From the NCBI GenBank assembly GCA_015233035.1, contig JADFYM010000003.1:1-64000 (forward strand): a stretch of 64,000 bases of DNA, given 5' to 3'. The position numbers and the translations under genes are program-made. Below are positions 12,150 to 58,804 of the stretch, piece by piece; position 1 is the stretch's first letter; each line of letters starts with the position of its first letter. A model generated the notes under the pieces. That model worked only from the letters and a program-made list of their open reading frames with translations. It ran no database searches and was not told where the DNA came from. This stretch comes from Magnetococcales bacterium (lineage in GTDB: Bacteria; Pseudomonadota; Magnetococcia; Magnetococcales; Magnetaquicoccaceae).

Positions 12150-14738
12150 GTGGCTTTACATCTTGACAAAATGATTTCCCGGGCACTGCACTGGACACCG
12201 ATCCAGATTCTGGGAGTTACCATCCTGATGGCAGAGATGGGCACAGCCCTCATTGTCAGCGGGATGAGCTTGTGGTTCCATGGCGAGATCCGCCGGGACT
12301 ACCTGATCACCGGTGTGGTGACCGCCCTGCTCGTCTCCCTGCTGGTGGTATCCGTCATGCTGCATCTGCTGCATCTGTTGCACGTGCGCATCAACGCAGC
12401 ACGTCAGGCAAATGAGGCTTTGCAAACCACGCTGGCGGAACACAAGAGCGTGGAGGATGCCCTGCGCATTCTCCTGAACATTGAGGAGGACATTGTCCTC
12501 GTCCGGGTCCATGACAGGGCAATCCTGTATGCCAACCCGAAATTTGAGCGCATGTTTGGCTATGACAAGGACGAACTGAACGGGCAGCATGTCAGCACAC
12601 TCAACGCCCCCACAGACAAGACGCCCGCCGAAATGGCAGCGATCATTCAGGACACTCTCAAACAGACTGGCCGCTGGACCGGGGAAATCCGCAACCGCAA
12701 GAAGGATGGCACCGAGTTTTGGTGTTATGCCACGGTTTCCACCTTCGAGCATCCGACGGCCGGCACAGTCTGGGTCAGCTTTCATCAGGACATCAGCGAA
12801 AAGAAACGGTTGAAAGAGGAGATCGACCAGCTCTTTTCTGTGGTGAATGATCTGTTGTGCATTGCTGATACCGATGGTTATTTCCGGCGCATCAACCCGT
12901 CCTGGGAGAAAGTGCTGGGATACTCGATGGAGGAACTGACCGCCCAGCCGTTCATCACCTTTGTGCATCCCGAAGATATCGAGCCAACCAGGCAGGCGAT
13001 TGCCCTCCAGATAAAACAACGACCCATCATTAATTTTGTCAATCGGTATCGCACCAAAGCAGGCGATTACCGCTGGCTGGAATGGCATTCCATCCCGGTA
13101 GGCAACCTTCTGTATGCCGCTGCGCGCGACATTACGGAGCGCAGACTGGCCGAAATTTCGCTGGCCGAAGCCAAGGAGATGGCCGAGTCGGCCTATCAAT
13201 ATTCCCGCAGTCTGATTGAGGCGAGCCAGGATCCGTTGGTGACCATCAGTGCGGAGGGCAAGATTACCGATGTCAACAAGGCCACGGAACAGGTCACCGG
13301 CGTGGCGCGCAACGACCTGATCGACAGCGACTTTTCAAACTATTTTACCGAACCCGAGCAGGCCCGGACCGGATACCAGCAGGTGTTTGCGCAAGGTTTT
13401 GTGACGGATTATCCGTTGGCCATCCGCCATGTCTCCGGCAAAGTGACCGATGTGCTCTATAATGCCAGTGTCTACCGTGATGCCCATGGTACGGTGCAGG
13501 GGGTGTTCGCCGCCGCACGGGACATTTCGGATCGCAAGCGGATCGAACGGGCCATCAAAAACGCCCTGGCACAGGCCGAGGCGGCCAACCGGGCCAAAAG
13601 CGAATTTTTGGCCGCCATGAGCCACGAAATTCGCACCCCCATGAATGTGGTCCTGGGCATGTCCGAAATGTTGCTGGAGACCGAACTCAATGCGGTACAA
13701 CGCCGTTTTGTGCAAACCATGCATCACTCGGGTCGTGCCCTGATGGGGGTGATCAACGATGTATTGGATTTTTCCCGCATTGAGGCCGGACATCTCACTC
13801 TGGTCGAGATACCTTTTTCCCCGCGCCAGGTGGTGGAAGAGACCGCCCGTTTGATGCAGGTGGCCGCCGAGGAAAAAGGGCTGACCCTGGAGGTGGCGGT
13901 GGCACCGAACATACCGAAGGCCGTGCTGGGTGATGATGGACGGATCAGACAGGTACTCATCAATCTGCTGGGCAATGCGATCAAATTTACGCATCAGGGG
14001 CGGGTGGATGTCTGCCTGACGCCCCATCCTCAGGAACCGGCGATGCTCCTGATTCGGGTCACGGATACCGGCATCGGGATCTCCCAGGAGCAAATAGACC
14101 ATATTTTCGACCTTTTTATCCAGGCAGATGCGGGTATCAGCCGCAGATATGGCGGTACGGGTCTGGGACTGGCCATTTCCCGGCGTCTGGCAGAGTTGAT
14201 GGGGGGCCAGATTGAGGTCACCAGCCAACTGGGACAGGGCAGTTCTTTCTGTTTCACCCTCCCCATGCGCATTGTGGCATCCGTCACGCCCCTGGTCGAG
14301 GAACCGAGCACCACTGTCGACACACGCAGTCTGCGCATCCTGCTGGCGGAAGATGTCGAGGAAAACCAGATGCTGTTTGAGGCTTATCTCATGCAAACCC
14401 CCCACCAATTGGTCATGGTGGACAATGGGATGGAGGCCATTGAACGGGTCCAGAAGGAGACCTTCGATGTGGTGGTCATGGACGTGCAGATGCCCAAAAT
14501 GGACGGCTACACCGCCACCCGTCACATCCGCCAGTGGGAACAGGCCATGGCCCGTTCCCCCGTTCCCATCATCGCCCTTTCCGCCCACGCCATGGCGGGA
14601 GAAAAGGAACGCAGTCGGGAAGCGGGATGTGACATCTATCTCTCCAAGCCCATCAAAAAACAGGCGTTGCTGCATGCCCTCCAGCAGATTGCCAGACATG
14701 CGGACCAGGATGTCACTTTCATCAAGGTGCCGGCATGA
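12150..14738 (+). CDS. Membrane hybrid histidine kinase: 2 TM, three PAS, HisKA, HATPase, REC
   Basis: A GTG start at 12150 was chosen because an AGG stands about 7 nt upstream; an in-frame ATG lies at 12171. The protein has 862 residues, with two closely spaced membrane helices (about 19-42 and 52-72) and hardly any periplasmic domain. Then follow PAS1 (105-218), PAS2 (225-332), PAS3 (353-462), HisKA with His492, HATPase, and a receiver (729-846, Asp778). Sensing is therefore likely in the membrane or cytoplasm. It lies 154 nt after the previous gene, the only sizeable gap in the array, and overlaps the next gene by ATGA. Its core is paralogous to those at 427, 9542 and 22181. Confidence 0.92.
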
Positions 14739-16696
14739 CCAGGAGATCCTCTCAACAATCGACAACCAGGACGGGCACCATCCTGCTGGTGGACGATCAA
14801 CCGGAACAAATCAAGGTGATCCGGGCGGCCTTGGACCCCCAGTTCCTGGTCAAGGTTGCCATTCGGGGAGAACAGGTACTCCCCATCGCCTTGGCCGGGG
14901 ATATTGATCTCATTCTTCTGGATGTGCTGATGCCGGAAATGGATGGGTACTCGGTCTGTCAGCAATTGAAGCGGCATCCCGCCACTTGCAAGATCCCGGT
15001 CATCTTTTTGACCTGTCGGGAGTCCCAGGATGACGAATCGCTTGGCCTGGAACTGGGGGCGGTGGATTTTATTCGCAAACCCAGCAGCCCGGCGGTGCTG
15101 GTGGCCCGGTGCAGCAATACCATCGCCTATCAACGCGCCAAAGAGGATCTGCGGCAGAAAAACGAGGAACTCCGCCAGGCCCTGCACATTCGCGAAGATG
15201 TGGAACGCATGTCCCGGCATGACATCAAGGGACCTTTGTCCGCCATCCTCGGTCTGCCAGAGATTCTCCTGGCCGATGGCACCCATACGGAAGGGCAACA
15301 GGCACTGCTGAAATTGATAGAAAAAAGCGGGTATATTATTTTAGATATAGTCAACCGATCTCTGGATCTTTTCAAAATGGAAAATGGCACCTACCAACTC
15401 CAGCCGGAAAAATTTGACCTGCTGGAAGTGTTGACACACATTGTGGGTGATCTTGAAAAACGTATCCGTGCGAAAGGGATCCATATTTCCCTGACGGATG
15501 CGGCGCAGGGCAACAACATGGCGTCATTTTTTGTTGTCGGAGAAAAGATGCTCTGCTATCCTCTTTTCTACAATCTGATCTTGAATGCTGTTGAGGCCTC
15601 TTGTGATCAGGGACACATATCCATTTCTCTGGCGACCGATGCGGGTTTCGGGATAATCCGCATGACCAACCCTGGGGAGGTACCCGGCGCGATCAGGTCA
15701 CAATTTTTTGATAAATATGTGACCTTTGGCAAGGCGGATGGCACCGGACTGGGCACTTATTCCGCCTGGCTGGCCGCCAAATCCCAGGGGGGAAGGATCG
15801 AACTGGATACCAGCCAACCCGGTGAGACATCCGTGACGGTGCTGTTGCCCAAAGAGGGCACCGTTCCGCCTCGGGCATCCACTGCCGACCACTGGCCGAC
15901 CGGGCCTGCGTTGCCGACGTCAAAACAGCCCGCAGGCTTGCGCATTTTACTGGTAGACGACGTGCAGGACAACCGCCTGGTGGTCGTGGCGTTTCTGGAC
16001 AATACCCCCCATCAGGTGGTGGAGGCGACCAGTGGCGAGGAGGCCATCGCCCTTTTTGCCGCAGGCTCGTTTGATCTGGTGTTGATGGATATCATGATGC
16101 CCGGCATGGACGGCATCGAGACAACGCGGAGAATCAGAGAAATGGAAGCGGCCAGGGGTACCCCTCGTGCAACGGTAGTGGCTCTGACAGCCAACACCAC
16201 GAAAGAGGATATGGACAGGGAATTGGCAGCGGGATGTGACCGGCATCTTTCCAAGCCACTGCGCCGTTCCAGTCTCCTGGAGGTCATCGACCAGACGGCG
16301 GAACAGGAAAATGTCACTGCAACACCCGTGGCCACCCCTGCGGTGGTTTCTCCCAATGCCATCAATGGCGATACGCTGGCGCGCCTGAAGGCAGAAGCCG
16401 GGAGTGGCTTTGAACGGGTGTTGGCCATGTTTCTCAGAAATTTTCCCGGTCGTCTTGACACTTTGCACAGCGCGTGGCAGATGCACGACCAGGAGGCGTT
16501 CAAGCAGGCGGCCCACAAACTCAAAGGAACCTCAGCCACCTTTGGGGCAGAAGGGTTTTCCAGCCTCTGCGCGACACTGGAACGACACGTGGCACAGGGC
16601 ACGGCAACAGAAACCGCCCCGGATATTCTGGATCAGATCAGGAAAGAAGGTGCGCGTGTCCAACAGGAACTGCAAGCTTTCCTGCCGCAAGCCTAA
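14735..16696 (+). CDS. REC, divergent histidine kinase, REC, Hpt phosphorelay protein
   Basis: A 653-residue soluble protein: REC1 (15-133, Asp63), a kinase core with an unusual H-box around His162 (SRHDIKGPL), an ATPase domain (about 265-375; NLILNAVEAS and DGTGLGTY), REC2 (402-522, Asp452, Lys507), and a C-terminal Hpt domain with His594 in HKLKGTSA. It thus contains every step of a His-Asp-His-Asp relay. The H-box and short ATPase resemble the HDxKxPL subgroup rather than the SHEIRTP cores of its neighbours. As last gene of the array, with a terminal Hpt, it is a candidate hub passing phosphate onward to stand-alone receivers such as those at 19679-21688 (inference). Confidence 0.9.
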   Translation: MTRRSSQQSTTRTGTILLVDDQPEQIKVIRAALDPQFLVKVAIRGEQVLPIALAGDIDLILLDVLMPEMDGYSVCQQLKRHPATCKIPVIFLTCRESQDDESLGLELGAVDFIRKPSSPAVLVARCSNTIAYQRAKEDLRQKNEELRQALHIREDVERMSRHDIKGPLSAILGLPEILLADGTHTEGQQALLKLIEKSGYIILDIVNRSLDLFKMENGTYQLQPEKFDLLEVLTHIVGDLEKRIRAKGIHISLTDAAQGNNMASFFVVGEKMLCYPLFYNLILNAVEASCDQGHISISLATDAGFGIIRMTNPGEVPGAIRSQFFDKYVTFGKADGTGLGTYSAWLAAKSQGGRIELDTSQPGETSVTVLLPKEGTVPPRASTADHWPTGPALPTSKQPAGLRILLVDDVQDNRLVVVAFLDNTPHQVVEATSGEEAIALFAAGSFDLVLMDIMMPGMDGIETTRRIREMEAARGTPRATVVALTANTTKEDMDRELAAGCDRHLSKPLRRSSLLEVIDQTAEQENVTATPVATPAVVSPNAINGDTLARLKAEAGSGFERVLAMFLRNFPGRLDTLHSAWQMHDQEAFKQAAHKLKGTSATFGAEGFSSLCATLERHVAQGTATETAPDILDQIRKEGARVQQELQAFLPQA

Positions 16697-17102: not shown

Positions 17103-17735
17103 TCAGGTCACCTTGACACGTGTCACGGCATATTTGCCCCGACTGTGCCGACGCAAAAGCTCCAGCACAATTTCCTTCAACCGGTCATAGGGCGTTGGTT
17201 TGTGCAAGACCTCCACATCATCCGGCACCCCGCCGTTGGCGGCGATTTGCTGATCGTTCATGCCGGTCACCACGACGATCCGTGGCATATTGAGATCGGG
17301 CGTTTCGCGGAGGCTTTTGAGCATCTGGAATCCATCCATGGCTGGCATCATCAGATCGGTGATGATCACTGCCGGTTTATGCATCCCGGCCTGAATCAGT
17401 CCATCGAAACCGTTGGTCGCCACAACCAGCTGCACGGGCCATCCCCAGTTGGCGACAACCTCTTTGGCTATTTCCCGCAAATCACCATCATCTTCCACCA
17501 ACAGGATGGTAATCGCGGGCTGTTCGCCTTCCAGCAGTTCTTCCTGACGCTTTTGCAACAATTGGTTGATAGAACTCATCGGAATGCGAAAATGCCCTCC
17601 GGCGGTCTTCCAGAACTTGATGGCACCCCGATCCATCCAATAATGGACGGTTCGTTGGGAGACACCCAGCAGACGGGCCGCCTTGGAAGAGGTGATAACC
17701 ATTTCCGATTCGTTTGTGGTCTGTGGTATATTCAT
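17103..17735 (-). CDS. HTH (MerR/excisionase-type) DNA-binding domain fused to a receiver domain
   Basis: A 210-residue response regulator with reversed order: an excisionase/MerR-like helix-turn-helix (14-65; SSKAARLLGVSQRTVHYW, then a GGHFRIP wing) precedes the receiver (75-195; Asp127, Lys179). Start ATG 17735 was chosen because it begins the conserved HTH and has GGA upstream; an open extension to 17939 reads like noncoding sequence. It is the only protein in the window with a recognisable DNA-binding output. The receiver is strongly similar to the stand-alone receiver at 21173 (shared VVANWGWPV, DLMMP, ANGGVP and LHKPTPYDRLKEIVL). It is transcribed away from the small gene at 18037. Its targets are unknown; a shared upstream motif at 17916 and 21044 is a candidate. 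Confidence 0.85.
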   Translation of the reverse strand: MNIPQTTNESEMVITSSKAARLLGVSQRTVHYWMDRGAIKFWKTAGGHFRIPMSSINQLLQKRQEELLEGEQPAITILLVEDDGDLREIAKEVVANWGWPVQLVVATNGFDGLIQAGMHKPAVIITDLMMPAMDGFQMLKSLRETPDLNMPRIVVVTGMNDQQIAANGGVPDDVEVLHKPTPYDRLKEIVLELLRRHSRGKYAVTRVKVT

Positions 17736-17915
17736 AGCAATTCCAATATGATGAATTGTTTTCACACCCGGCTTCACGCACCGCACGACTCCCAGCAAAC
17801 CGGCAAATAAAGAAAATCCGGTGATCGTAAGACACAAACGTACTCCACGCAAGCAAAATCTATGCATCAGGAGACAAAAAATTTGCAAAAAAAGCGATTG
17901 GAGCAAAAATAATCC

Positions 17916-17945
17916 TTGCAATATTTGCATAGAAAGCAATAATGA
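17916..17945 (+). promoter_or_regulatory. Candidate promoter/operator with TTGC...GCAA motif
   Basis: The region holds TTGCAATATTTGCATA followed by GAAAGCAATAA. TTGCAA (17916) and TAATGA (17940) with an 18-nt spacer could form a weak promoter reading toward 18037. The same approximately 27-nt arrangement, with few differences, recurs at 21044-21070. The outer TTGC and GCAA form an inverted repeat, so this may be an operator. The rest of the 301-nt gap 17736-18036 is AT-rich and shows nothing else. Confidence 0.4.
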
Positions 17946-18414: not shown

Positions 18415-19614
18415 ATGGATACTCGTTCAGGCATCAGTAGTGTGGTTAAATCTCATCTTGTCAGTGTGGCACCGAGCGACACCACACTGCCGGAAAAGCA
18501 GCCTGTTGTCGTCTCCGTTTCCAGAAACTTTGGCTCCAACGGGGGAAAAATCGCGGAACTGTTGGCCGCACGTCTCCAGGTAAACTGTTATGGACACTCG
18601 ATGATCGACGAGTTGATCAAAACGACCAAAACAACGAAGAGATTGATGTCACTCATGGACGAAAAATTGCCCAAGCCGATTGACAGCTTTCTCTACTCCC
18701 TGTTCCTGGCACCGGAACAGTCCGTGGCCGGGTATTACAAGAATATGATAAAAACAATTTTGATGATCGCGCAAAAGGGAGGGGTGATCCTTGGGCGCGG
18801 GGCACGCCTGGTCCTGGCCAATCATCCACACGTGTTTCGTGTGGGGATCGAGGGGTCATATGATGTGTGCGTCCGGCGGGTTGCCCAACGCGAAAGTATC
18901 AGCCTGGAAGAGGCGAAACGGAAAATTGCGGAGACAGAGAAGGAAAGATCGCGTTTCCTGAAGGGTTTGTACAAACGGTTTCCCAGCAATCGCACCTATT
19001 ACGATCTGGTCATCAATTCAGACAAGATTGATCCGCAACATGCGGTGGAGATTATTGTCAATGCCATGGAGAGTATGGGCTACCCCGTCCCAGGGAAGGA
19101 ACTCAAGGCAGAGGAAATACCGCAGCCGCACGCTGTCGTGCGACATGCGGCCACACCAGCACAAAAAACGGACGCGATCAGGATTGGGATGAATTTCCTG
19201 ATTGTCGAAGATGAGGTGGAATTTTTTGCCATCATCAATGGATGGTTGACCAATTCGATAGCCGGCAAGGAATCCTCCAGCCAGATGCCATCGCTCCATT
19301 TGACCCATGCCAAAACCTTCAAGGAAGCCGAATTGTTTCTGTCACAGCACAAGTATGACCTGATCCTGCTGGATCTCAATCTGGCCGACAGTCATGGGTA
19401 TGAAGAGACCTTTGTACGCATGAACCAGAAAAATCTGGACACCCCCATCATCGTATTTACCGGCCTGGACGACGAACAAAAGGCCATTCAGGCTGTGGCA
19501 GACGGCGCGCAGGATTATCTGGTGAAAGGCCAGGTGAACAAAAAGACCCTGGTGCGCTCGATCAAGCAGGCCATGTCGCGCTACAAGATCATGCGGCAGT
19601 ATACCCGGATCTAG
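18415..19614 (+). CDS. Cytidylate-kinase-like protein fused to a receiver domain
   Basis: A 399-residue fusion. Residues 30-225 match the cytidylate-kinase-like family (Cytidylate_kin2): a P-loop-like SRNFGSNGGKIAELLAARL (36-54), the motif GGVILGRGARLVL (about 122-134) and the Arg-rich lid region (155-186). Nothing shows that the substrate really is CMP; many members of this family are uncharacterised. Residues 255-390 form a receiver with acidic residues in LIVEDEVEF, phospho-acceptor Asp320 (LILLDLNLAD) and Lys371. GGAG stands 8 nt before the ATG. A nucleotide-kinase fold as the possible output of a phosphorelay is unusual. Neighbours are an HTH-receiver and single receivers, so it likely takes phosphate from the surrounding hybrid kinases. 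Confidence 0.85.
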   Translation: MDTRSGISSVVKSHLVSVAPSDTTLPEKQPVVVSVSRNFGSNGGKIAELLAARLQVNCYGHSMIDELIKTTKTTKRLMSLMDEKLPKPIDSFLYSLFLAPEQSVAGYYKNMIKTILMIAQKGGVILGRGARLVLANHPHVFRVGIEGSYDVCVRRVAQRESISLEEAKRKIAETEKERSRFLKGLYKRFPSNRTYYDLVINSDKIDPQHAVEIIVNAMESMGYPVPGKELKAEEIPQPHAVVRHAATPAQKTDAIRIGMNFLIVEDEVEFFAIINGWLTNSIAGKESSSQMPSLHLTHAKTFKEAELFLSQHKYDLILLDLNLADSHGYEETFVRMNQKNLDTPIIVFTGLDDEQKAIQAVADGAQDYLVKGQVNKKTLVRSIKQAMSRYKIMRQYTRI

Positions 19615-19678: not shown

Positions 19679-20119
19679 ATGGCCCATATTCTGGTTGTTG
19701 ATGATGATGACCTGTCGCGCCTGTATCTGGTCGCGATATTAAGGAATGCCGGTCACACGGTACAAGAGGCCGAAAGCGGGCAAAAATGTCTGGAACAAAT
19801 TGACCTGAACGCTGTCGATCTGACGATCACAGACATTTTCATGCCCGTGATGGATGGGTTTGAACTGCTCGCCACGCTTCTGAAAGCGCGTCCAGGCAGC
19901 AAGGTGATTGCCATGTCCGGTGGCGGATTGACCATGCGCAAAAAATTGGCGTTGCATGTGGCAAAAAAATTTGGGGCGATTGATTTGATCAGCAAACCAT
20001 TTCAGTCCAGTGGTGTACTCGACACAGTGACCCAGGCTCTTTGCCCCGCAAAGTCATTTATTGCCTGTCAAAACTGGCTGTGCAGACAAGACGCATTATT
20101 TTTTTCAGGAACAGGGTAG
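19679..20119 (+). CDS. Single-domain response regulator
   Basis: Start ATG 19679 (MAHILVVDDDD) was chosen because AAGGAAAG lies just upstream and the receiver begins immediately; an upstream in-frame ATG at 19631 adds 16 unlikely residues. The protein has 146 residues and one CheY-type receiver, with phosphorylatable Asp in LTITDIFMP and Lys in ISKPFQ. The last ~25 residues (CPAKSFIACQNWL...) go beyond the fold and are not conserved. It is a tandem paralogue of the next gene. With no output domain it probably shuttles phosphate or acts by protein binding. Confidence 0.85.
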   Translation: MAHILVVDDDDLSRLYLVAILRNAGHTVQEAESGQKCLEQIDLNAVDLTITDIFMPVMDGFELLATLLKARPGSKVIAMSGGGLTMRKKLALHVAKKFGAIDLISKPFQSSGVLDTVTQALCPAKSFIACQNWLCRQDALFFSGTG

Positions 20120-20187: not shown

Positions 20188-20592
20188 ATGGCACACATCC
20201 TGGTTGTTGACGATGACGAAGCCATCAGGAGCTTTTTGGCCGAAATTTTGCGGAAGGCCGGACATACCGTGATCGAGGCGGAAAATGGCTGCGCCGGTTT
20301 TGAAAAGATTAAAGTGGATCCTGTTGATCTCACTATTACCGACATCTTCATGCCAGAAATGGATGGCATTGACCTGTTGGCAGCCATTCTGCAAACCTAT
20401 CCAAACAGCAAGGTGATTGCCATCACCGGTGGTTACAAGGCCATGTATTCCCATCTGACGTTGAAACTGGCTCAGTCGTTCGGTGCAGTGGATATTATTA
20501 CAAAACCTTTTCAAGTTGACCAAGTGATCAGAAAGGTCGCACTGGCCCTCCAATCCATGGACATCCAGGCAGAAGAAGGGGTAATGACATGA
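20188..20592 (+). CDS. Single-domain response regulator
   Basis: A 134-residue CheY-like receiver beginning MAHILVVDDDEAIR, with the phospho-acceptor Asp in LTITDIFMPEMDG, and Lys in IITKPFQ. It shares the start and the ITDIFMP block with the gene at 19679, pointing to tandem duplication. Its stop overlaps the start of the Hpt gene by ATGA, so the two are probably made together and may exchange phosphate. Confidence 0.88.
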   Translation: MAHILVVDDDEAIRSFLAEILRKAGHTVIEAENGCAGFEKIKVDPVDLTITDIFMPEMDGIDLLAAILQTYPNSKVIAITGGYKAMYSHLTLKLAQSFGAVDIITKPFQVDQVIRKVALALQSMDIQAEEGVMT

Positions 20593-20999
20593 ACACGTTC
20601 GCCAAAAACGATCTACATCCCGACCGGGATATGGAACTGAGCCAGGATGCCGACAATGAACCGTTTCTGGTTCTGGACAAGCTGGCCGAAATGAAACAGG
20701 AACTGGGTCCCAGTTTTCTCAACGTGATACAACATTTTCAATCCGGGATCCTGTTGCGTCCGGAAAAAATCAATCAGGCCATCCAGGCAAACGATCCAGA
20801 ACGAGTGGAAAGGGAAAGTCATTCCCTGAAAAGCGTGTGCCGACAAATCGGTCTGGTCCAGATGGGACATTTGGCTGCCAACCTGGAGTCTCTCGCCCAT
20901 GCTGGCGAACTGCGCGGGGCTGGCTTGCTCGTCGGGCAGCTGATTCAGGCAGGACAATTGGCCCATTCTCAACTGACAGAATATTGCACCTCGCCCTGA
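20589..20999 (+). CDS. Stand-alone Hpt (histidine phosphotransfer) protein
   Basis: A 136-residue helical protein with the Hpt signature ESHSLKSVCRQIG near residue 83, where the His is the expected phosphate carrier (canonical form H-x-L-K-G/S), followed by GHLAANLESLAHAGEL. No membrane segment. Hpt proteins carry phosphoryl groups between hybrid-kinase receivers and terminal regulators. It is translationally coupled by ATGA to the receiver at 20188, which suggests a dedicated pair. Confidence 0.82.
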   Translation: MNTFAKNDLHPDRDMELSQDADNEPFLVLDKLAEMKQELGPSFLNVIQHFQSGILLRPEKINQAIQANDPERVERESHSLKSVCRQIGLVQMGHLAANLESLAHAGELRGAGLLVGQLIQAGQLAHSQLTEYCTSP

Positions 21000-21172: not shown

Positions 21173-21688
21173 ATGAACAGCGCACAAACCACCCCCGAAA
21201 CAGGCTCTTTTCTCACAACCTCCCCGACGACCCAGACGCCGGAGCAAAGTGAAGATCAGGAGGTGCCACAGGCATTTCATCCGCCGACCCTGACCATTTT
21301 GATGGTGGAGGATGATGGCGAGTTGATGGAGATGACCAAAGCAGTCGTCGCCAACTGGGGATGGCCCGTTCGCCTTGTCGTGGCGAAAAATGGTTCCGAT
21401 GGACTGCTGCAGGCCGGTTTGAACAGACCGGTCGTGATCGTCACCGACTTGATGATGCCAGACATGGATGGGTTTCAGATGCTGAAAAGTCTGAGCGAGA
21501 TGCCGGATCTCCAGGTATCACGTGTTGTGGTGGTGACGGGGATGGACGACCAACATATTGCCGCCAACGGCGGTGTGCCGACAGGTGTCGAGATATTGCA
21601 CAAACCAACCCCCTATGACCGGTTGAAGGAAATTGTGCTGACTTCCACCATGTTCACGCCCTCTGCCTGTTCGCGGACCGTTCAATGA
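21173..21688 (+). CDS. Response regulator receiver protein, paralogue of the HTH-receiver
   Basis: A 171-residue protein: about 40 polar, disordered N-terminal residues, then a receiver (EDDGEL acidic pair, Asp in VTDLMMPDMDG, Lys in LHKPTPYD). The receiver is close to that of the gene at 17103, but the helix-turn-helix is absent, so it cannot bind DNA in the same way. It may compete for phosphate or dimerise with the HTH protein (inference). The end diverges (TSTMFTPSACSRTVQ). Confidence 0.85.
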   Translation: MNSAQTTPETGSFLTTSPTTQTPEQSEDQEVPQAFHPPTLTILMVEDDGELMEMTKAVVANWGWPVRLVVAKNGSDGLLQAGLNRPVVIVTDLMMPDMDGFQMLKSLSEMPDLQVSRVVVVTGMDDQHIAANGGVPTGVEILHKPTPYDRLKEIVLTSTMFTPSACSRTVQ

Positions 21689-22180: not shown

Positions 22181-24136
22181 TCAGGATGAGACAGTGGTCC
22201 GGTTGGCAATTTCCTGGAGCACATCCAGCAGCTTTTTTTTGTTGATCGGTTTGGTCAGATACAGATCACAGCCGACTTCCTGGCTGCGTTGGATCTCCGT
22301 CTCCATGGCGTGGGCGGACAGGGCGACAATCGACAAGGGAGCACGTCCCATTTCCCGTTCCCACTGGCGAATCTGCCGGGTGGCGGTGTAGCCGTCCATT
22401 CTTGGCATCTGGATGTCCATGACCACGACGTCGAATGGCTCCTCTTGCACACGTGCGACCGCTTCCACCCCATCGCCCACCATCACCAGATGGTGCGCTG
22501 TTCCCATGAGATAGGCCGCAAACAGCAGTTGGTTTTCTTCGACATCTTCCGCCAGCAGGATGCGCAGCGTGCGGTTGCTGGCGGCCGTGGTCGGCACAAC
22601 AGATTGGGTCGGCAGCACGGGGGTGGCCGCTATTCTTATGGGCAGCGTGAAATAAAATTGACTCCCCGCCCCCAATCGGCTTGCCACCCCGATCTCCCCC
22701 CCCATCAATTCCACCAAACGCTTGGAAATGGCCAACCCCAAACCGGTACCCCCATAACGCCGGGTAATCCCCTTGTCGGCCTGCGTAAACCGGTCGAAGA
22801 TATCCACCACATCTTCCTGGGCAATGCCGATGCCGGTATCAACCACCTGAAAGAGAAGGCTGCCCGGCACATGGGGATGCTTGGTCAAACGCACATCCAC
22901 CCGCCCCTGTTGGGTAAATTTGATCGCATTACCCAGCAGGTTGATGAGCACCTGACGTATCCGGTTCTCGTCACCCAGAATGGCTGCCGGCAGATCGGCG
23001 TCCACCCACTCCGTCATGGTCAGCCCTTTCTGCTCGGCCACCACTTGCATCAGATGGGCGGTATCCTCCACCACCTGGCGGGGGGAGAAGGGGCTCATCT
23101 CCATCGAGATGCGCCCTGCATCAATGCGGGAAAAGTCCAGCACATCGCTGATCACCCCCAGCATGGCCTTGCCCGAATGGTGCATGGTCTGGACAAAACG
23201 ACGTTGCACAGGGTTGAGCTCGGTTTCCAGTAACAATTCCGACATGCCCAGCACCACGTTCATGGGGGTACGGATCTCGTGGCTCATGGAAGCAAGAAAC
23301 GCGCTCTTGGCCTGGTTGGCCTGCTCGGAAGCCTCCATGGCGGCCTGCAACTCTACCTGAATTTTTTTGTACGCGGAAATATCGGTGATCGTACCCACAT
23401 ACCCGATTACCTTGTGGTCGTCCTCCTGGAGGGGGGTGGCCTGCGCCATGACCCACACCACCGTTCCATCCTGCCATTGGTAGCGAAATTCGGCCTGAAA
23501 AGCCTCCTGACGGGCCACACAGTCAAACCATGCCGCCTCCAATGGGGCCCGATCCTGCGGATGAACCGCCCATGACCACTCCAAGCCCGAACGTTCGTCC
23601 TGCGCCAACCCGGCAATCCGTCGCCACGCCTGGTTGACATAGAGTGTTTTCCCCGAGGTGTCGGTATGGAAGATGCCGGAAGGGGAATGGTTGGCCAAGG
23701 TGAGAAACCGGTTTTCGCTCTTGCGCAGTGCTTCTTCCGCCACCCGCCGCTGTTTGCGTTCTGCCACCTCGCGCACCTCCCGCGCAATGGCGGGAGCCAG
23801 GCGGGAAAAATTGGCTTTCGAGACAAAGTCATGGGCTCCGGCCTTCAACAGCGAGACGGCCTGTGCTTCGTCAATCACCCCGGATATCACGATGAACGGG
23901 ATATCTCCCACCCGCTTCTGGCAGAGGAGCAACGCTTCCATCGCCGTAAACTGGGGCAAGTGGCAATCGGAAATCACCACATCCCAACGCTCCCGTGCCA
24001 AGGCATCCGTCATGGCTTCGGCACTCTCCACCCGCTGGGAGACAAACATCACCCCCTGTGTACGCAAAGCACGCACCATCAGCAGATAATCGGCTTCCGC
24101 ATCTTCGACGACCAGAATGTGGAGCTCAGAGGTCAT
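22181..24136 (-). CDS. Hybrid histidine kinase: REC, PAS, HisKA, HATPase, REC
   Basis: A 651-residue soluble kinase. REC1 (2-120) has Asp57 in ISDCHLP and ends in VSKANFSRL, typical of receivers at the start of PAS-kinases. PAS with PAC motif (135-256; VGTITDIS) follows, then HisKA with His286 in [16 protein letters not shown], HATPase (DTGIGI, GGTGLGL), and REC2 (525-645, Asp574, Lys629). Its start overlaps the stop of the upstream Rcp1-like receiver gene by 4 nt, so the two are co-translated. The HisKA-REC part is nearly the same as in the kinases at 427, 9542 and 12150. Confidence 0.93.
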
Positions 24137-24585
24137 ACACTCACCTTTTCGACCGGCAGAGGCTCATTCAGCAACACCCAATAGAGTCCCAGTTGCGCCA
24201 CGGACCGACTGAACTCTTCGAAACCAATCGGTTTTTGTACAAAACTGTTGGCTCCCAACTGGTAGCCGGAGAGAATATCCCGATCTTCGTTGGAAGAGGT
24301 CAGGATAACCACCGGCAACAACCGTGTCCGTTGGTCTGCCCGAATCTCTTGCAATACCTGCAACCCTCCCATCTTGGGCAGTTTCAGATCCAGCAGCACT
24401 ACCGTTGGCAGATCCTGGGTGTCACGCGCCGCATATTCCCCCTGGCCAAACAGGAAATTGAGTGCCTCTTCGCCATCGCGCACCACCTCAATCTTGTTGG
24501 TCACATGGTGTTTGGCCAATGCCCGCAGGGTGAGCATCTCATCCTTGGGATTGTCTTCCACCAACAGTATAAATCTCTTATCCAT
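24133..24585 (-). CDS. Rcp1-like single-domain response regulator
   Basis: A 150-residue receiver starting MDKRFILLVEDNPKDE (ATG 24585). An in-frame extension overlaps the upstream kinase end and was rejected. It has the phytochrome-partner (Rcp1) style: VEDNPKDEMLTLRAL, a long insertion, phospho-Asp in VVLLDLKLPKMGG, and Lys in FVQKPIGFEEF. Members of this subfamily usually receive phosphate from kinases with the [14 protein letters not shown] type H-box. That fits the preceding gene, which ends with just such a module 2 nt upstream. Confidence 0.9.
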   Translation of the reverse strand: MDKRFILLVEDNPKDEMLTLRALAKHHVTNKIEVVRDGEEALNFLFGQGEYAARDTQDLPTVVLLDLKLPKMGGLQVLQEIRADQRTRLLPVVILTSSNEDRDILSGYQLGANSFVQKPIGFEEFSRSVAQLGLYWVLLNEPLPVEKVSV

Positions 24586-25272
24586 TGTCACTCTCCCCGT
24601 TCCGGCAAGGTAAAGAAAAAGGTGGCCCCCTTGCCAACCTCGGCCTGGGCCCACAGGCTCCCGCCATGCTGGCGAATGATGCGTTGTACCGTGGCCAGAC
24701 CGATCCCGTTCCCCGGAAATTCATCGGAACGGTGCAGGCGTTGGAAGGGGATGAACAGTTTGTCGCGATATTTCATGTCAAAGCCAGCCCCATTGTCCCG
24801 CACCGCATAGACCGTGTTGCCCTCCTGCAACACGCTGCCAAGCGATATCTCGGCCTGGGGGGTCTTACCCGTATATTTCCAGGCATTGCCCAGCAGGTTT
24901 TCCATGGCCACCATCAGCAGTTGGGCGTTGCCATGCACCACCAGATGGGGGGCGATCTCCACCATTACCCGGCGATCCGGCTCCGCCTGCCGCAGAGAGG
25001 CCACGACCTTGTCCGCCAACCCGGAAAGATTCACGATCTCTTGGCGCATTTCCCCACGGGTCACACGGGAAAGTTGCAACAACCCATCAATCAGCCGCCC
25101 CATCTCCTGGCTGCTCTCCTGCAACATTCTGAGATAGGTCTGCGCCTCACCCTGCAGTTGGTCTCCATAATCCTCCATGAGAGCCTGGCTGAAACCACTG
25201 ATGGCCCGCAGGGGAGCGCGCAGGTCGTGGGAAACGGAGAAGGAGAAGGATTCCAACTCCTGATTGGCCGCA
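24515..25272. repeat. Copy A of a ~750-bp segmental duplication
   Basis: It spans the first ~70 nt of the Rcp1-like receiver gene and the final kinase module of the 24588 gene. Copy B lies at 28592-29348 in the same orientation. In the protein-coding part the two copies encode only about four amino-acid differences over ~215 residues, indicating recent duplication or gene conversion. Confidence 0.9.
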
Positions 25273-28591: not shown

Positions 28592-28661
28592 GCCAATGCC
28601 CGCAGGATGAGCATCTCGTTGTGGGAGTGTCTTCCAGCAACGGTATCAGCCTCTTATCCAT
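28592..28661 (-). pseudogene. Remnant of a duplicated Rcp1-like receiver gene
   Basis: Directly after the kinase stop at 28664, with the same 2-nt spacing as at 24585/24588, a start codon (28661) opens MDKRLIPLLEDTP, clearly matching MDKRFILLVEDNP of the gene at 24133. A 1-nt deletion then shifts the frame; the shifted frame continues with MLILRAL, matching MLTLRAL. Homology ends near 28592. It cannot make a receiver. Confidence 0.8.
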
Positions 28662-29348
28662 TGTCACACTCCCCGTTCCGGCAAGGTAAAAAAAAAGGTG
28701 GCCCCCTTGCCAACCTCGGCCTGGGCCCACAGGCTCCCGCCATGCCGGCAAATGATGCGCTGTACCGTGGCCAGACCGATCCCGTTCCCCGGAAATTCAT
28801 CGGAACGGTGCAGGCGTTGGAAGGGGATGAACAGTTTGTCGCGATATGTCATGTCAAAGCCGGCCCCATTGTCCCGCACCGCATAGACCGTGTTGCCCTC
28901 CTGCAACACGCTGCCAAGCGATATCTCGGCCTGGGGGGTCTTGCCCGTATATTTCCAGGCATTGCCCAGCAGGTTTTCCATGGCCACCATCAGCAGTTGG
29001 GCGTTGCCATGCACCACCAGATGGGGGGCGATCTCCACCATTACCCGGCGATCCGGCTCCGCCTGCCGCAGAGAGGCCACGACCTTGTCCGCCAACCCGG
29101 AAAGATTCACGATCTCTTGGCGCATTTCCCCACGGGTCACACGGGAAAGTTGCAACAACCCATCAATCAGCCGCCCCATCTCCTGGCTGCTCTCCTGCAA
29201 CATTCTGAGATAGGTCTGCGCCTCACCCTGCAGTTGGTCTCCATAATCCTCCATGAGAGCCTGGCTGAAACCACTGATGGCCCGCAGGGGAGCGCGCAGA
29301 TCATGGGAAACAGAAAAGGCGAACGCTTCCAACTCCTGGTTGGCGGCT
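28592..29348. repeat. Copy B of the ~750-bp segmental duplication
   Basis: It matches 24515-25272. Identity fades just beyond the H-box upstream region at about 29300-29348 and, at the other end, within the broken receiver remnant (28592-28661). Confidence 0.9.
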
Positions 29349-29806
29349 TGCAGGGCAATCTCGACCAGATGCCGCTCCTCCATTTCTGCCCGCAACCGGG
29401 CGTTGGTCTGATTGAGCAGATCAACCATCCGCCGGGTTTCCAACAACCGGGCCACCTGATTGACCAGATTGATCAAAAAGGGCAAATAAGGGCGCAACGC
29501 TTCCGGTTCGACGACCTCTATGACCAGGGCACCGTAACAGTGGGTCAGGGAGCGCAAGGGCAACAGGTTGCGTCCTGCCACCATTCCAGACAAGGGGGCC
29601 AGCGCGGACCTGGGCAAATGGGGAGAAGGAGCAGAAGTTTCCGACCAGGGCACCAGTTCCAACCAGGCCCCCGTGACACCGGGCATCTCTCCCAACATCG
29701 CCCCAAGAAAGCCGCCCATCTCCTCGACCGAGGGCATGACATCCATGGTCGTTTGGACCAGCAACAACCGCCCCAGAATTTCCGGCAGTGGCATTTCCAA
29801 ACTCAT
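28664..29806 (-). CDS. GAF-like sensor with phytochrome-type histidine kinase (HisKA, HATPase)
   Basis: ATG 29806 (MSLEMPLPEILGRLL) overlaps the upstream MEDS gene stop by ATGA, giving 380 residues. Residues 10-125 look like a GAF-type domain; a helical linker (125-155) follows, then HisKA with His168 in [14 protein letters not shown], and a HATPase ([23 protein letters not shown]). There is no receiver of its own. The kinase half is almost identical to the C-terminal module of the 24588 gene, and its former partner receiver is the broken remnant right downstream. It may therefore now depend on the receiver at 24133 (inference). Confidence 0.9.
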   Translation of the reverse strand: MSLEMPLPEILGRLLLVQTTMDVMPSVEEMGGFLGAMLGEMPGVTGAWLELVPWSETSAPSPHLPRSALAPLSGMVAGRNLLPLRSLTHCYGALVIEVVEPEALRPYLPFLINLVNQVARLLETRRMVDLLNQTNARLRAEMEERHLVEIALQAANQELEAFAFSVSHDLRAPLRAISGFSQALMEDYGDQLQGEAQTYLRMLQESSQEMGRLIDGLLQLSRVTRGEMRQEIVNLSGLADKVVASLRQAEPDRRVMVEIAPHLVVHGNAQLLMVAMENLLGNAWKYTGKTPQAEISLGSVLQEGNTVYAVRDNGAGFDMTYRDKLFIPFQRLHRSDEFPGNGIGLATVQRIICRHGGSLWAQAEVGKGATFFFTLPERGV

Positions 29807-30456
29807 TGCCCCAATGACCCCTGGAACGCCCCGCCCCAACGGGCCAGCCACTGCTTGACATCCACATAGTAGGGATTGCGCACCACCTGCCCATGCACGA
29901 CCATCAGTGGATGCACCTGCAAAGCCGCAAAGAGGGCGGCACCACTGAAACGCCGGGCGTCGTACTGGCAAATCGGAATGATGGGACATTCCAGGACAAG
30001 ATCATTGAGGAGACATTCATACTCGAAGAGATGACAGGCCCCAGGGACATTGCCCAAAGCCCATTGCATCTCCCCGCTGGCGCGAAAATGCCGCCAGCCC
30101 CCGGCCTTGCTGGCGGCGTAGAGCTTGCGCAGTCGTCCCAACATCGCTGCCGGGGTGAATGTACCATCGGGGAAATAGGACTCCTGGGTGGTCAGCAGCA
30201 GCAGTTGTCGCCGCGCTTCGAGGGTCGCGCAATCCACCCCCAGAGAGACCAGCATCTGGCGGATCTGATCGGTGTTGACATCATCGGCCAGATATCCCAC
30301 CTGTTCCCCGTTTTCCAGACCCGCTTGCAGGAATTGGCCGACCACCCGACAGCGTTCCGCCTCATCGTTGTAGATAAGACACATGTGGCCACCCGGAGGA
30401 AACCTTTCCTCCGTAAAGCCGAGGTTGATACGGGTTTCCTGCTCGTTTTCGTTCAT
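29803..30456 (-). CDS. MEDS-domain sensory protein
   Basis: Start ATG 30456 (MNENEQETRINLGF) follows a GGGGGAGAAT ribosome site, giving 217 residues. The protein matches the MEDS (DcmR-type sensory) family: HMCLIYNDEAE, the LENGEQVGYLADD segment, MLGRLRKLYAASKAGGWRHFRASGEM, and the CLLNDLVLECPIIPICQYD block. MEDS domains resemble RecA/KaiC folds and sense small, often one-carbon or halogenated, compounds; the ligand here is unknown. Coupling by ATGA to the following GAF-kinase suggests it gates that kinase. Confidence 0.82.
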   Translation of the reverse strand: MNENEQETRINLGFTEERFPPGGHMCLIYNDEAERCRVVGQFLQAGLENGEQVGYLADDVNTDQIRQMLVSLGVDCATLEARRQLLLLTTQESYFPDGTFTPAAMLGRLRKLYAASKAGGWRHFRASGEMQWALGNVPGACHLFEYECLLNDLVLECPIIPICQYDARRFSGAALFAALQVHPLMVVHGQVVRNPYYVDVKQWLARWGGAFQGSLGQ

Positions 30457-30595
30457 CAGTATTCTCCCCCTGCCCGTCAAGCAGTTTAACGGTTTTCTGG
30501 ACAAATGGGACAACCAGGATCTCTGCCTGCACGGGGACGGGACACGGCATGACAACGGGCAGTCACGTCACGTCTCCCGGTTGGGCACCGTTCTC

Positions 30596-56764: not shown

Positions 56765-58804
56765 ATGAATGCACCTGGGAAAACCAAGACCTTGTTCGTA
56801 GCCTGTATGGTGTACATGGCGGTTGCCGGAGGGTTGATTGCGGACGATTGTCCTCCCGGTCCGCAGAAGGTCGAGTGCCAGCAGGAGAAGGAACGCAAGC
56901 AACACCAGCAACCGGAGCAACACCCGCAACGAGAGCAACCCGAAAAACAGCATCCCGCAGCGGCACCGCAACGGCCACAACCCGAACCACCCGCACAACG
57001 TCCCACAGCGGCACCGCAACGGCCACAACCCGAACCACCCGCACAGCGTCCCGCAATGGAACCGCAACGGCCACAACCCGGACCACCCGCACAGCATCCC
57101 GCAGTGGCACCGCAGCGGCCACAACCCGAACCACCCGCACAACGTCCTGCGGTGGAACCGCAACGGCCACAACCCGGACCACCCGCACAGCATCCCGCAG
57201 CGGAACCGCAACGGCCACAACCCGAGCCACCCGCACCGCATCGAGCAGTGGAACCGCACCAGCCACAACCTGGACCGGTGGAACAACGTCCCGCAGTGGA
57301 ACCAAAACGGTCACAACCGGAACCGGCAAATGCCCATTCAGAGCAGATCGACAGACAACCCGAAAAGCATCACGACCACTCGGTTCCCGATTTTGGCAGG
57401 TCACCAGAACCGACGCTCCCTGTCCCCCCCTCTGGTGGAAATATTAACAATCGGGAGACATTGCCTCACACAGGCGATACCTCATCCCGTCCTGGGCATC
57501 TTCTCTCTCCCGCTGCTGCACCACCCAACAAAGCCGGGACCGCATCCCATGCCATCCCCATCAATCAAAACGTGCAGGCGATCAGGCATGGTAAAGCGAA
57601 CGACTACACCATCATCCACCATCCAAAGGATGGATCCGAAGTGGTGTTCAGGAGACAACGTCTGCCAGATGGACAGACTTTCGTGTCTGGATACAAACAA
57701 ACCCTCCGTGCCGAGGGGAGTGGCTGGACGCGCACCTATCTGGATGGACGCCGGGTTTCTGTCAATCCCCAGTACGTGGAACGTTCTGATCCCTTGCGCC
57801 CCTTCGATGTCATCACGCATCACAACGGTCTGCGCGAGGGCTTCACCCATACCGGCCGTCCTGCGTTCCACGAAATTTTCACCGAGATCCAGCACAACAA
57901 CCGGCATGAACAGGTAGTACAGCGGATCATGAGCGTTACGATGGCCAACCATACCGTGGTGCCTCTTGCTGCACCCATCCTGCAATACTATGCCATTGTG
58001 CCATTCGGCGACATCACCGTGTTTTCCTATTATCCCGCCAGCCGGGATGCGGAATACTATGCCATGCTGTACCGTCCTATCGCGCTCTCTGTGACCCAGG
58101 ATTGCACCTATTGTCCGCCACCAGTCATCGTGTACGAACACCCGGTTGCCTTCTACAGCGACCCGATCGTGCTGTTGAGTGACATGACCTTGGCCACCCC
58201 CCTGTATGAAGGCATGATGCCGGTTGCCAGCAATGCGCATCAGGCAGAGATCGACGCACTCCAAAACCAGTTCTCTGCTTTGCAACAAACAGTCAATCAT
58301 GAGGTCCAAGGAAATACCGAATTGCTGTCTCAGTTGGCTGACCTCCAAATGGATCCCCAGGCAATGAACCAGCCCATGCCTGGCATCGACACATCCAGAA
58401 CAGAGCAGGTCATGGTACCGGAAGATGTGCGCGAACAGATCAAACAACAGATAATCCAGGCATTGGCTTATCAAAAAGAGGGAAAAAATCTGTCCATCAT
58501 CGATGTGATTACCTCCCCCAAAGCCAGCCATCATCTTTTTCAGGTAGCAGAAACGATTGACGCCATCAATGCCGATAGCGGCGAGGATTGTACTCTGACC
58601 AGCGGCGACCTTATCTCCTTCAATACCGTTCCCATTGAAGGAGACTCGTCTGCCTCCATGCTGGTCACTGTCAGCAAAAAGAAGAGCTGCCCGATGGGAG
58701 CACATATCCATGTCGGCCTGTACGATTTACAAGAAATGCTGAACAGTTTCAACCAGAACCTGGAAAAAAACATGGAAGAATTGCATAAACATATTGCACA
58801 ATAA
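56765..58804 (+). CDS. Secreted Pro/Gln-rich repeat protein of unknown function
   Basis: A 679-residue exported protein: signal peptide (about 1-26), a charged Gln-rich stretch (40-65), seven full 16-residue repeats of the APQRPQPEPPAQRP type (67-178), a further polar region to about 255, then a folded domain (about 265-490) containing YTIIHHPKDGSEVVFRRQRLPDG and Tyr-rich segments (YYAIVPFGDITVFSYYP), and a helical C-terminus (490-679). GGAG stands 7 nt before ATG. The Pro-rich region likely spans the periplasm or cell wall as an extended arm. I do not recognise the C-terminal domains. It is divergent from the PhnD-like gene and has its own transcript. Confidence 0.85.
   Translation: MNAPGKTKTLFVACMVYMAVAGGLIADDCPPGPQKVECQQEKERKQHQQPEQHPQREQPEKQHPAAAPQRPQPEPPAQRPTAAPQRPQPEPPAQRPAMEPQRPQPGPPAQHPAVAPQRPQPEPPAQRPAVEPQRPQPGPPAQHPAAEPQRPQPEPPAPHRAVEPHQPQPGPVEQRPAVEPKRSQPEPANAHSEQIDRQPEKHHDHSVPDFGRSPEPTLPVPPSGGNINNRETLPHTGDTSSRPGHLLSPAAAPPNKAGTASHAIPINQNVQAIRHGKANDYTIIHHPKDGSEVVFRRQRLPDGQTFVSGYKQTLRAEGSGWTRTYLDGRRVSVNPQYVERSDPLRPFDVITHHNGLREGFTHTGRPAFHEIFTEIQHNNRHEQVVQRIMSVTMANHTVVPLAAPILQYYAIVPFGDITVFSYYPASRDAEYYAMLYRPIALSVTQDCTYCPPPVIVYEHPVAFYSDPIVLLSDMTLATPLYEGMMPVASNAHQAEIDALQNQFSALQQTVNHEVQGNTELLSQLADLQMDPQAMNQPMPGIDTSRTEQVMVPEDVREQIKQQIIQALAYQKEGKNLSIIDVITSPKASHHLFQVAETIDAINADSGEDCTLTSGDLISFNTVPIEGDSSASMLVTVSKKKSCPMGAHIHVGLYDLQEMLNSFNQNLEKNMEELHKHIAQ
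56963..57325 (+). repeat. 48-bp in-frame tandem repeat array
   Basis: Seven full 48-nt units (56963, 57011, 57059, 57107, 57155, 57203, 57251) and a partial eighth encode 16-residue Pro/Gln-rich units. The middle units alternate between PQPEPPAQR and PQPGPPAQH forms, so the array may have grown by doubling a 96-bp pair. Last units are degenerate. Confidence 0.92.

Follow-up and report, generated by a model that had tools for sequence, protein, structure and literature searches.

The window, a 64,000-nucleotide stretch of a Magnetococcales genome (contig JADFYM010000003.1, positions 1 to 64,000), encodes a protein in which a Cytidylate_kin2 (PF13189) domain, hereafter CK2, is joined through a linker to a C-terminal receiver. 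The gene for this CK2-REC protein and its recognisable parts are as follows:

18415-19614, plus strand: CK2-REC fusion gene, an ORF of 399 amino acids (Pfam domains; 14 full-length homologous loci; dN/dS)
18508-19026, plus strand: PF13189 Cytidylate_kin2 (CK2) domain, residues 32-204 (Pfam, 1.3e-39; P-loop NMP-kinase fold by AlphaFold2 and Foldseek)
18523-18543, plus strand: P-loop equivalent R37-N-F-G40-S-N-G43 (Cmk alignments; both models place a strand at 32-37 and the start of a helix at 43)
18796-18798, plus strand: R128 of the GRGA motif, by motif order the counterpart of the Cmk GRD arginine (invariant in 51/51 intact PF13189 domains)
19081-19185, plus strand: linker, residues 223-257 (low model confidence; fast-evolving)
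19186-19599, plus strand: receiver domain, residues 258-395 (E265-D266, phospho-acceptor D320, T349, K371)

A first-pass annotation of the DNA had read this gene as a cytidylate-kinase-like domain fused to a receiver, and Pfam bears this out: PF13189 is matched with 136.6 bits (cut-off 28; E = 1.3e-39) over positions 1-176 of its 176-position model, and Response_reg (PF00072) with 53.1 bits (cut-off 30.2) over residues 295-382. The receiver starts at about residue 258, a short insert past helix 1 masking its N-terminus in the Pfam model. An AlphaFold2 model of the CK2 domain, obtained with a 24-sequence alignment, has P-loop kinase topology (mean pLDDT 74, with 87-96 in most core blocks; pTM 0.65), and a Foldseek search with it returns the solved PF13189 members 3hdt and 3fdi at the top (TM(target) 0.85 each), with shikimate, adenylate and CMP kinases next at about 0.5-0.6. 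In the full-length model (15 sequences; pLDDT 66, pTM 0.46), the receiver is complete, starting at residue 259, and the linker is unstructured; the arrangement of the domains is unreliable. E265, D266, D320, T349 and K371 are invariant in 15/15 CK2-REC sequences; judged by its residue content, the receiver keeps the full phosphorylation set and is predicted to be phosphorylatable.

The fusion is real, neither a chance event nor an assembly join, since both domains are encoded end to end at 14 further loci in 13 other genomes. These full-length homologues, recovered from a sample of 48 Magnetococcales genomes, share 60-73% identity and all belong to the same family, so that the earlier concern that no homologue might retain the fusion falls away. 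Carriers account for 5 of the 7 genomes of the window's own genus (own genome counted) and 9 of the 11 of a sister genus, and none of the 30 genomes from other Magnetococcales families contains CK2-REC in this form. The named examples are Magnetococcales MAGs, and a search of viral contigs found no encoded relatives. dN/dS (NG86) is about 0.05-0.15 in CK2 and receiver alike and the 35-residue linker evolves far faster, the contrast alone being meaningful because some pairs are dS-saturated; by this measure, both domains are under purifying selection, from which the linker is exempt.

The gene is embedded in a dense set of signalling genes, which comprises the following neighbours:

12150-14738, plus strand: hybrid histidine kinase PAS-HisKA-HATPase-REC, candidate phosphodonor (domain scan over 12183-14738)
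14735-16696, plus strand: hybrid kinase REC-HisKA-HATPase-REC-Hpt, candidate phosphodonor (domain scan)
17103-17939, minus strand: divergent HTH_17-REC regulator (Pfam; translation probably begins past the first start listed)
19679-20119, plus strand: single-domain receiver a (Pfam; synteny)
20188-20592, plus strand: single-domain receiver b (Pfam; synteny)
20589-20999, plus strand: free Hpt phosphotransfer protein (Pfam; homologue downstream of the fusion in 11/14 other loci)
21173-21688, plus strand: receiver at the usual place of a REC-GGDEF protein (Pfam; 80% DNA identity to the HTH_17-REC receiver)
22181-24136, minus strand: hybrid kinase REC-PAS-HisKA-HATPase-REC, candidate phosphodonor (domain scan)

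The window thus shows the order divergent HTH_17-REC, CK2-REC, two single receivers, Hpt and a further receiver, with hybrid kinases flanking both sides. The island of receivers with a free Hpt that had been described from the sequence is verified by Pfam and syntenic in most CK2-REC genomes. No more than 6 kb from the fusion, the other loci encode HTH_17-REC in 10/14 cases, single or tandem receivers in 12/14, Hpt in 11/14 and REC-GGDEF in 8/14, with the order kept and short contigs accounting for some of the absences. From this shared gene order we conclude that the genes form a fixed phosphorelay module, in which a single free Hpt accompanies four or more receivers. The proposal that CK2-REC is the effector of the whole network is not borne out: it would be at most one branch, because the same Hpt neighbours two lone receivers, the HTH-receiver and usually a REC-GGDEF protein.

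The receiver at 21173-21688 is an inverted copy of the HTH_17-REC receiver (17163-17510) that lacks the HTH and replaces the REC-GGDEF protein usual in relatives. A 754-bp direct repeat of 96% identity (24515-25268 and 28592-29344), judged from its sequence to be a recent duplication or conversion, makes two adjacent histidine kinases near copies of each other in their C-terminal kinase regions. A MEDS sensory-domain ORF and the beginning of a HisKA-HATPase ORF overlap in different frames (29803-30468 and 28664-29989, minus strand), and a frameshift may have divided what was a single MEDS kinase. A tandem array with a 48-bp period occupies 56947-57324.

The loop following strand 1 of CK2 reads S-R37-N-F-G40-S-N-G43-G-K45. 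In an ungapped alignment with Cmk, R37 lies opposite the first Walker glycine and G43 opposite the catalytic lysine; the scores of CK2/Cmk profile alignments are not significant by themselves, and it is the topology of the fold together with the order of the motifs that supports the residue equivalence. In the modelled domain, the strand ends at residue 37 and the helix begins at residue 43, as a P-loop requires. We surveyed 66 non-identical PF13189 domains, of which 51 are intact in that they keep R37 and R128 and 15 have neither. Each of the 51 intact domains has Gly at position 43, and Lys occurs there in 0/66; Gly is also found there in proteins of Treponema, Lachnospira, Subdoligranulum and Nonomuraea (n = 4; Spirochaetota, Bacillota and Actinomycetota), and the solved structures 3fdi and 3hdt carry it opposite the Walker-A lysine. 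At position 45, the CK2-REC clade has Lys or Arg, whereas relatives have His, Glu, Asp, Tyr or Asn. The possibility that K45 is a shifted Walker lysine was ruled out, since relatives carry His, Glu, Asp, Tyr, Asn or Arg at this position.

Conservation of the remaining pocket is extensive, with R37, G40, G43, G122, G127, R128, R155 and D203 present in all 51 intact domains and D82, E83, R142, R178 and D197 in 96-98% of them, and the family invariants cluster in the P-loop, GRGA and lid motifs. Because its Arg, Asp and Glu residues are invariant or near-invariant, the sequences indicate that the ligand pocket of PF13189 domains is maintained. The perfect co-occurrence of R37 and R128 (51 domains with both, 15 with neither) was dropped as proof of their coupling, as the tree places the change on one branch and the cases are not independent evidence. 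The window's genome has a separate, ordinary Cmk with an intact P-loop (L008:1336-2124), which was the sole match in a TIGR00017 search of that genome, CK2-REC not being found, and the Cmk proteins of 14/14 Magnetococcales relatives retain the Walker-A lysine. Against TIGR02173, the model for archaeal (d)CMP kinase, CK2-REC reaches 37 bits compared with a cut-off of 102, a weak similarity in its C-terminal part.

P-loop phosphotransfer is usually lost when the lysine is lost. The first-pass annotation had pointed to the nucleotide-binding residues in a structure model as informative and had wavered between a nucleotide kinase and a domain that simply binds nucleotide. Its P-loop NMP-kinase fold stands, and the pocket arginines and acidic residues are invariant, but the Walker-A lysine is missing, as in every PF13189 protein examined; for this reason, nucleotide binding is favoured over nucleotide phosphorylation. 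Given that the Arg/Asp pocket residues remain and that the genome has a separate Cmk, CMP kinase activity of CK2-REC appears unlikely and ligand binding by its CK2 domain likely. Unusual catalysis by means of another residue set conserved across the family is possible.

PF13189 domains also occur in other settings. Elsewhere in the order, fusions of the types CK2-cNMP-REC (L108, L110), CK2-cNMP (L109) and cNMP-CK2 (L111) branch elsewhere in the PF13189 tree. At 13 of the 21 PF13189 loci outside the CK2-REC clade, the gene itself encodes a receiver or histidine kinase or has one at most 3.5 kb away; among arbitrary stretches of related genomes, 4 of 20 contain one (Fisher p = 0.011). Once the two REC-fused loci are left out, the count is 11 of 19 (p = 0.022). 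This enrichment is suggestive only, the sample not being blindly drawn (four loci were picked for long ORFs) and some control stretches being short. In the window's own genome (L007:1426-3324, contig C202), a PF13189 domain devoid of R37 and R128 occupies the usual place of the sensor domain at the N-terminus of a HisKA-HATPase-REC hybrid kinase; among the matches listed for relatives, the kinase half was found alone. Tandem PF13189 genes (L108:4005-6463, L110, L124:5511-6925 and L127:4920-6455) combine one copy that has R37 and R128 with a neighbour that lacks both, like an active/inactive pair. A divergent PF13189 gene adjoins the gene for a NiFe hydrogenase large subunit (L117:5084-7731), and another proteobacterium encodes a PF13189-BON fusion (L121:4920-5771); the main text of the BON-domain paper does not discuss PF13189. 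The standalone genes of Treponema and Lachnospira have metabolic neighbourhoods. In [Eubacterium] eligens, such a gene is situated between those for an SLC13 permease and a phosphatase (L151:3995-5319), a possible hint at a metabolite substrate. In the open-access literature, we found nothing on PF13189 together with receivers or on any PF13189 function, and we know of no ligand for any PF13189 protein.

Phylogenetic analysis sheds light on the origin of the fusion. In the receiver tree, all 15 CK2-REC sequences group as one clade (SH-aLRT 99) nested among cNMP-binding-REC proteins found throughout the order (enclosing nodes 83-99), with some long branches and open forks that leave their exact sister unsure. 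In the PF13189 tree, the 15 CK2-REC domains likewise form a single clade (SH-aLRT 100), placed inside a group of standalone PF13189 proteins that are about 47-52% identical to them and include one from the window's genome. As the receiver nests in the cNMP-REC family, the PF13189 domain appears to have taken the place of a cNMP-binding domain, the simplest history being one replacement in the ancestor of the family. A cNMP-REC gene lies directly upstream of CK2-REC in three sister-genus (g2) genomes (L060-L062), and none was found in the window's own genome.

We see about an even chance that CK2-REC is a response regulator of a multi-receiver phosphorelay that carries a non-canonical ligand-binding module of NMP-kinase fold, with ligand and receiver coupled. 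Nearby hybrid histidine kinases would pass phosphate to the free Hpt, which would then phosphorylate D320 of CK2-REC as one among several competing receivers. The conserved Arg/Asp pocket of the CK2 module may accommodate a nucleotide or a different phosphorylated metabolite as ligand; because the Walker-A lysine is absent, the module would be no classical P-loop kinase. If D320 phosphorylation and ligand occupancy were coupled, a metabolite signal could be integrated with the phosphorelay in one direction or the other, the pocket either adding this signal or presenting a ligand-dependent surface, and such a mode of integration would match the sister cNMP-REC proteins. By analogy with PhyR, an output role for CK2 is also plausible. 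Several points speak against this reading: we know of no PF13189 ligand, the CK2/Cmk profile alignments are not significant, the standalone Lachnospira PF13189 gene adjoins a phosphatase gene and the metabolic settings in Treponema and Lachnospira would suit an enzyme, and the Lys or Arg at position 45 of the CK2-REC clade could in principle serve catalysis.

The last two points lend some weight to a distinctly less probable reading in which CK2 catalyses phosphotransfer by way of an unusual P-loop and is switched on by the receiver, a phosphorylated nucleotide or small molecule serving as the output signal. The NMP-kinase fold and the invariant arginines and acidic residues of the pocket would be consistent with such an enzyme, as would the K/R at position 45 and the transporter, phosphatase and aminotransferase genes beside standalone relatives elsewhere, and PhyR offers a precedent for an N-terminal output domain with a C-terminal receiver (PMC3892343). 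However, the Walker-A lysine is found in 0/66 domains, relatives have His, Glu, Asp, Tyr or Asn where the CK2-REC clade has K/R at position 45, the module in the window has no co-occurring substrate gene, and CK2 stands in for the ligand-binding domain of the sister family. We give slightly less credence to the idea that CK2 is a protein-binding or dimerisation scaffold whose fold was kept and whose interface is exposed or hidden upon receiver phosphorylation. Such a role would again resemble that of PhyR, with its N-terminal partner and C-terminal receiver, and could explain the persistence in the order of a PF13189 lineage without R37 and R128, one copy of it on a hybrid kinase, and the tandem pairs of intact and degenerate copies (L124, L108, L110 and L127), but it fits poorly with pocket residues that are invariant in the CK2-REC clade and with family invariants that gather in the P-loop, GRGA and lid motifs. 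The reading as an ordinary CMP/dCMP kinase with an incidental receiver is hardly credible, as only the database name and the weak C-terminal similarity to TIGR02173 (37 bits vs 102) speak for it, against the lack of a Walker-A lysine, the separate intact Cmk and the failure to reach the cut-off of Cmk models.

On a broader level, it is conceivable, if improbable, that this order uses its PF13189 domains, gated by the receiver, either as phosphotransferases without the lysine or as sensors of a nucleotide signal yet to be described, and that they can be exchanged for cNMP-binding domains. If so, a phosphorelay would write or read a new nucleotide messenger. PF13189 is a kinase family by annotation name and has two solved structures, and the absence of the Walker-A lysine throughout our sample is a caution against that label. 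Repeated and independent ties link the family here to modules of two-component and cyclic-nucleotide signalling, and since the CK2-REC receiver can be switched with beryllofluoride, PF13189 function becomes directly testable.

Among known systems, the solved PF13189 proteins 3fdi and 3hdt share with CK2-REC the full-model match, the lysine-less GS[GN]G P-loop and the GR[GC]A motif, and they are its best fold match; whereas PF13189 covers nearly the whole of their short chains (201 and 223 amino acids), CK2-REC adds the receiver and a conserved N-terminal GIS..S..F segment. The Magnetococcales cNMP-REC proteins (PF00027-PF00072) have the same receiver subfamily (about 50-64% identity) and domain order but a cyclic-nucleotide-binding fold where CK2-REC has PF13189. 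The triple CK2-cNMP-REC proteins (L108, L110) also unite PF13189 and a receiver in one protein, with a cNMP domain in between, and as their PF13189 copy belongs to another clade, this fusion arose independently of CK2-REC. With Cmk (EC 2.7.4.25), CK2 has in common the P-loop NMP-kinase fold, the GR motif and the lid arginine region, whereas CK2-REC lacks the Walker-A lysine, scores under the family cut-offs and bears a receiver. PhyR of the Alphaproteobacteria, in which phosphorylation turns the N-terminal domain into a docking interface (PMC3892343), likewise combines an N-terminal partner with a C-terminal receiver, but in place of PF13189 it has a domain resembling a sigma factor, to which an anti-sigma factor docks, and the likeness is one of architecture. 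Response regulators with unusual partner domains are already known, and PF13189 is a new variant among these partners.
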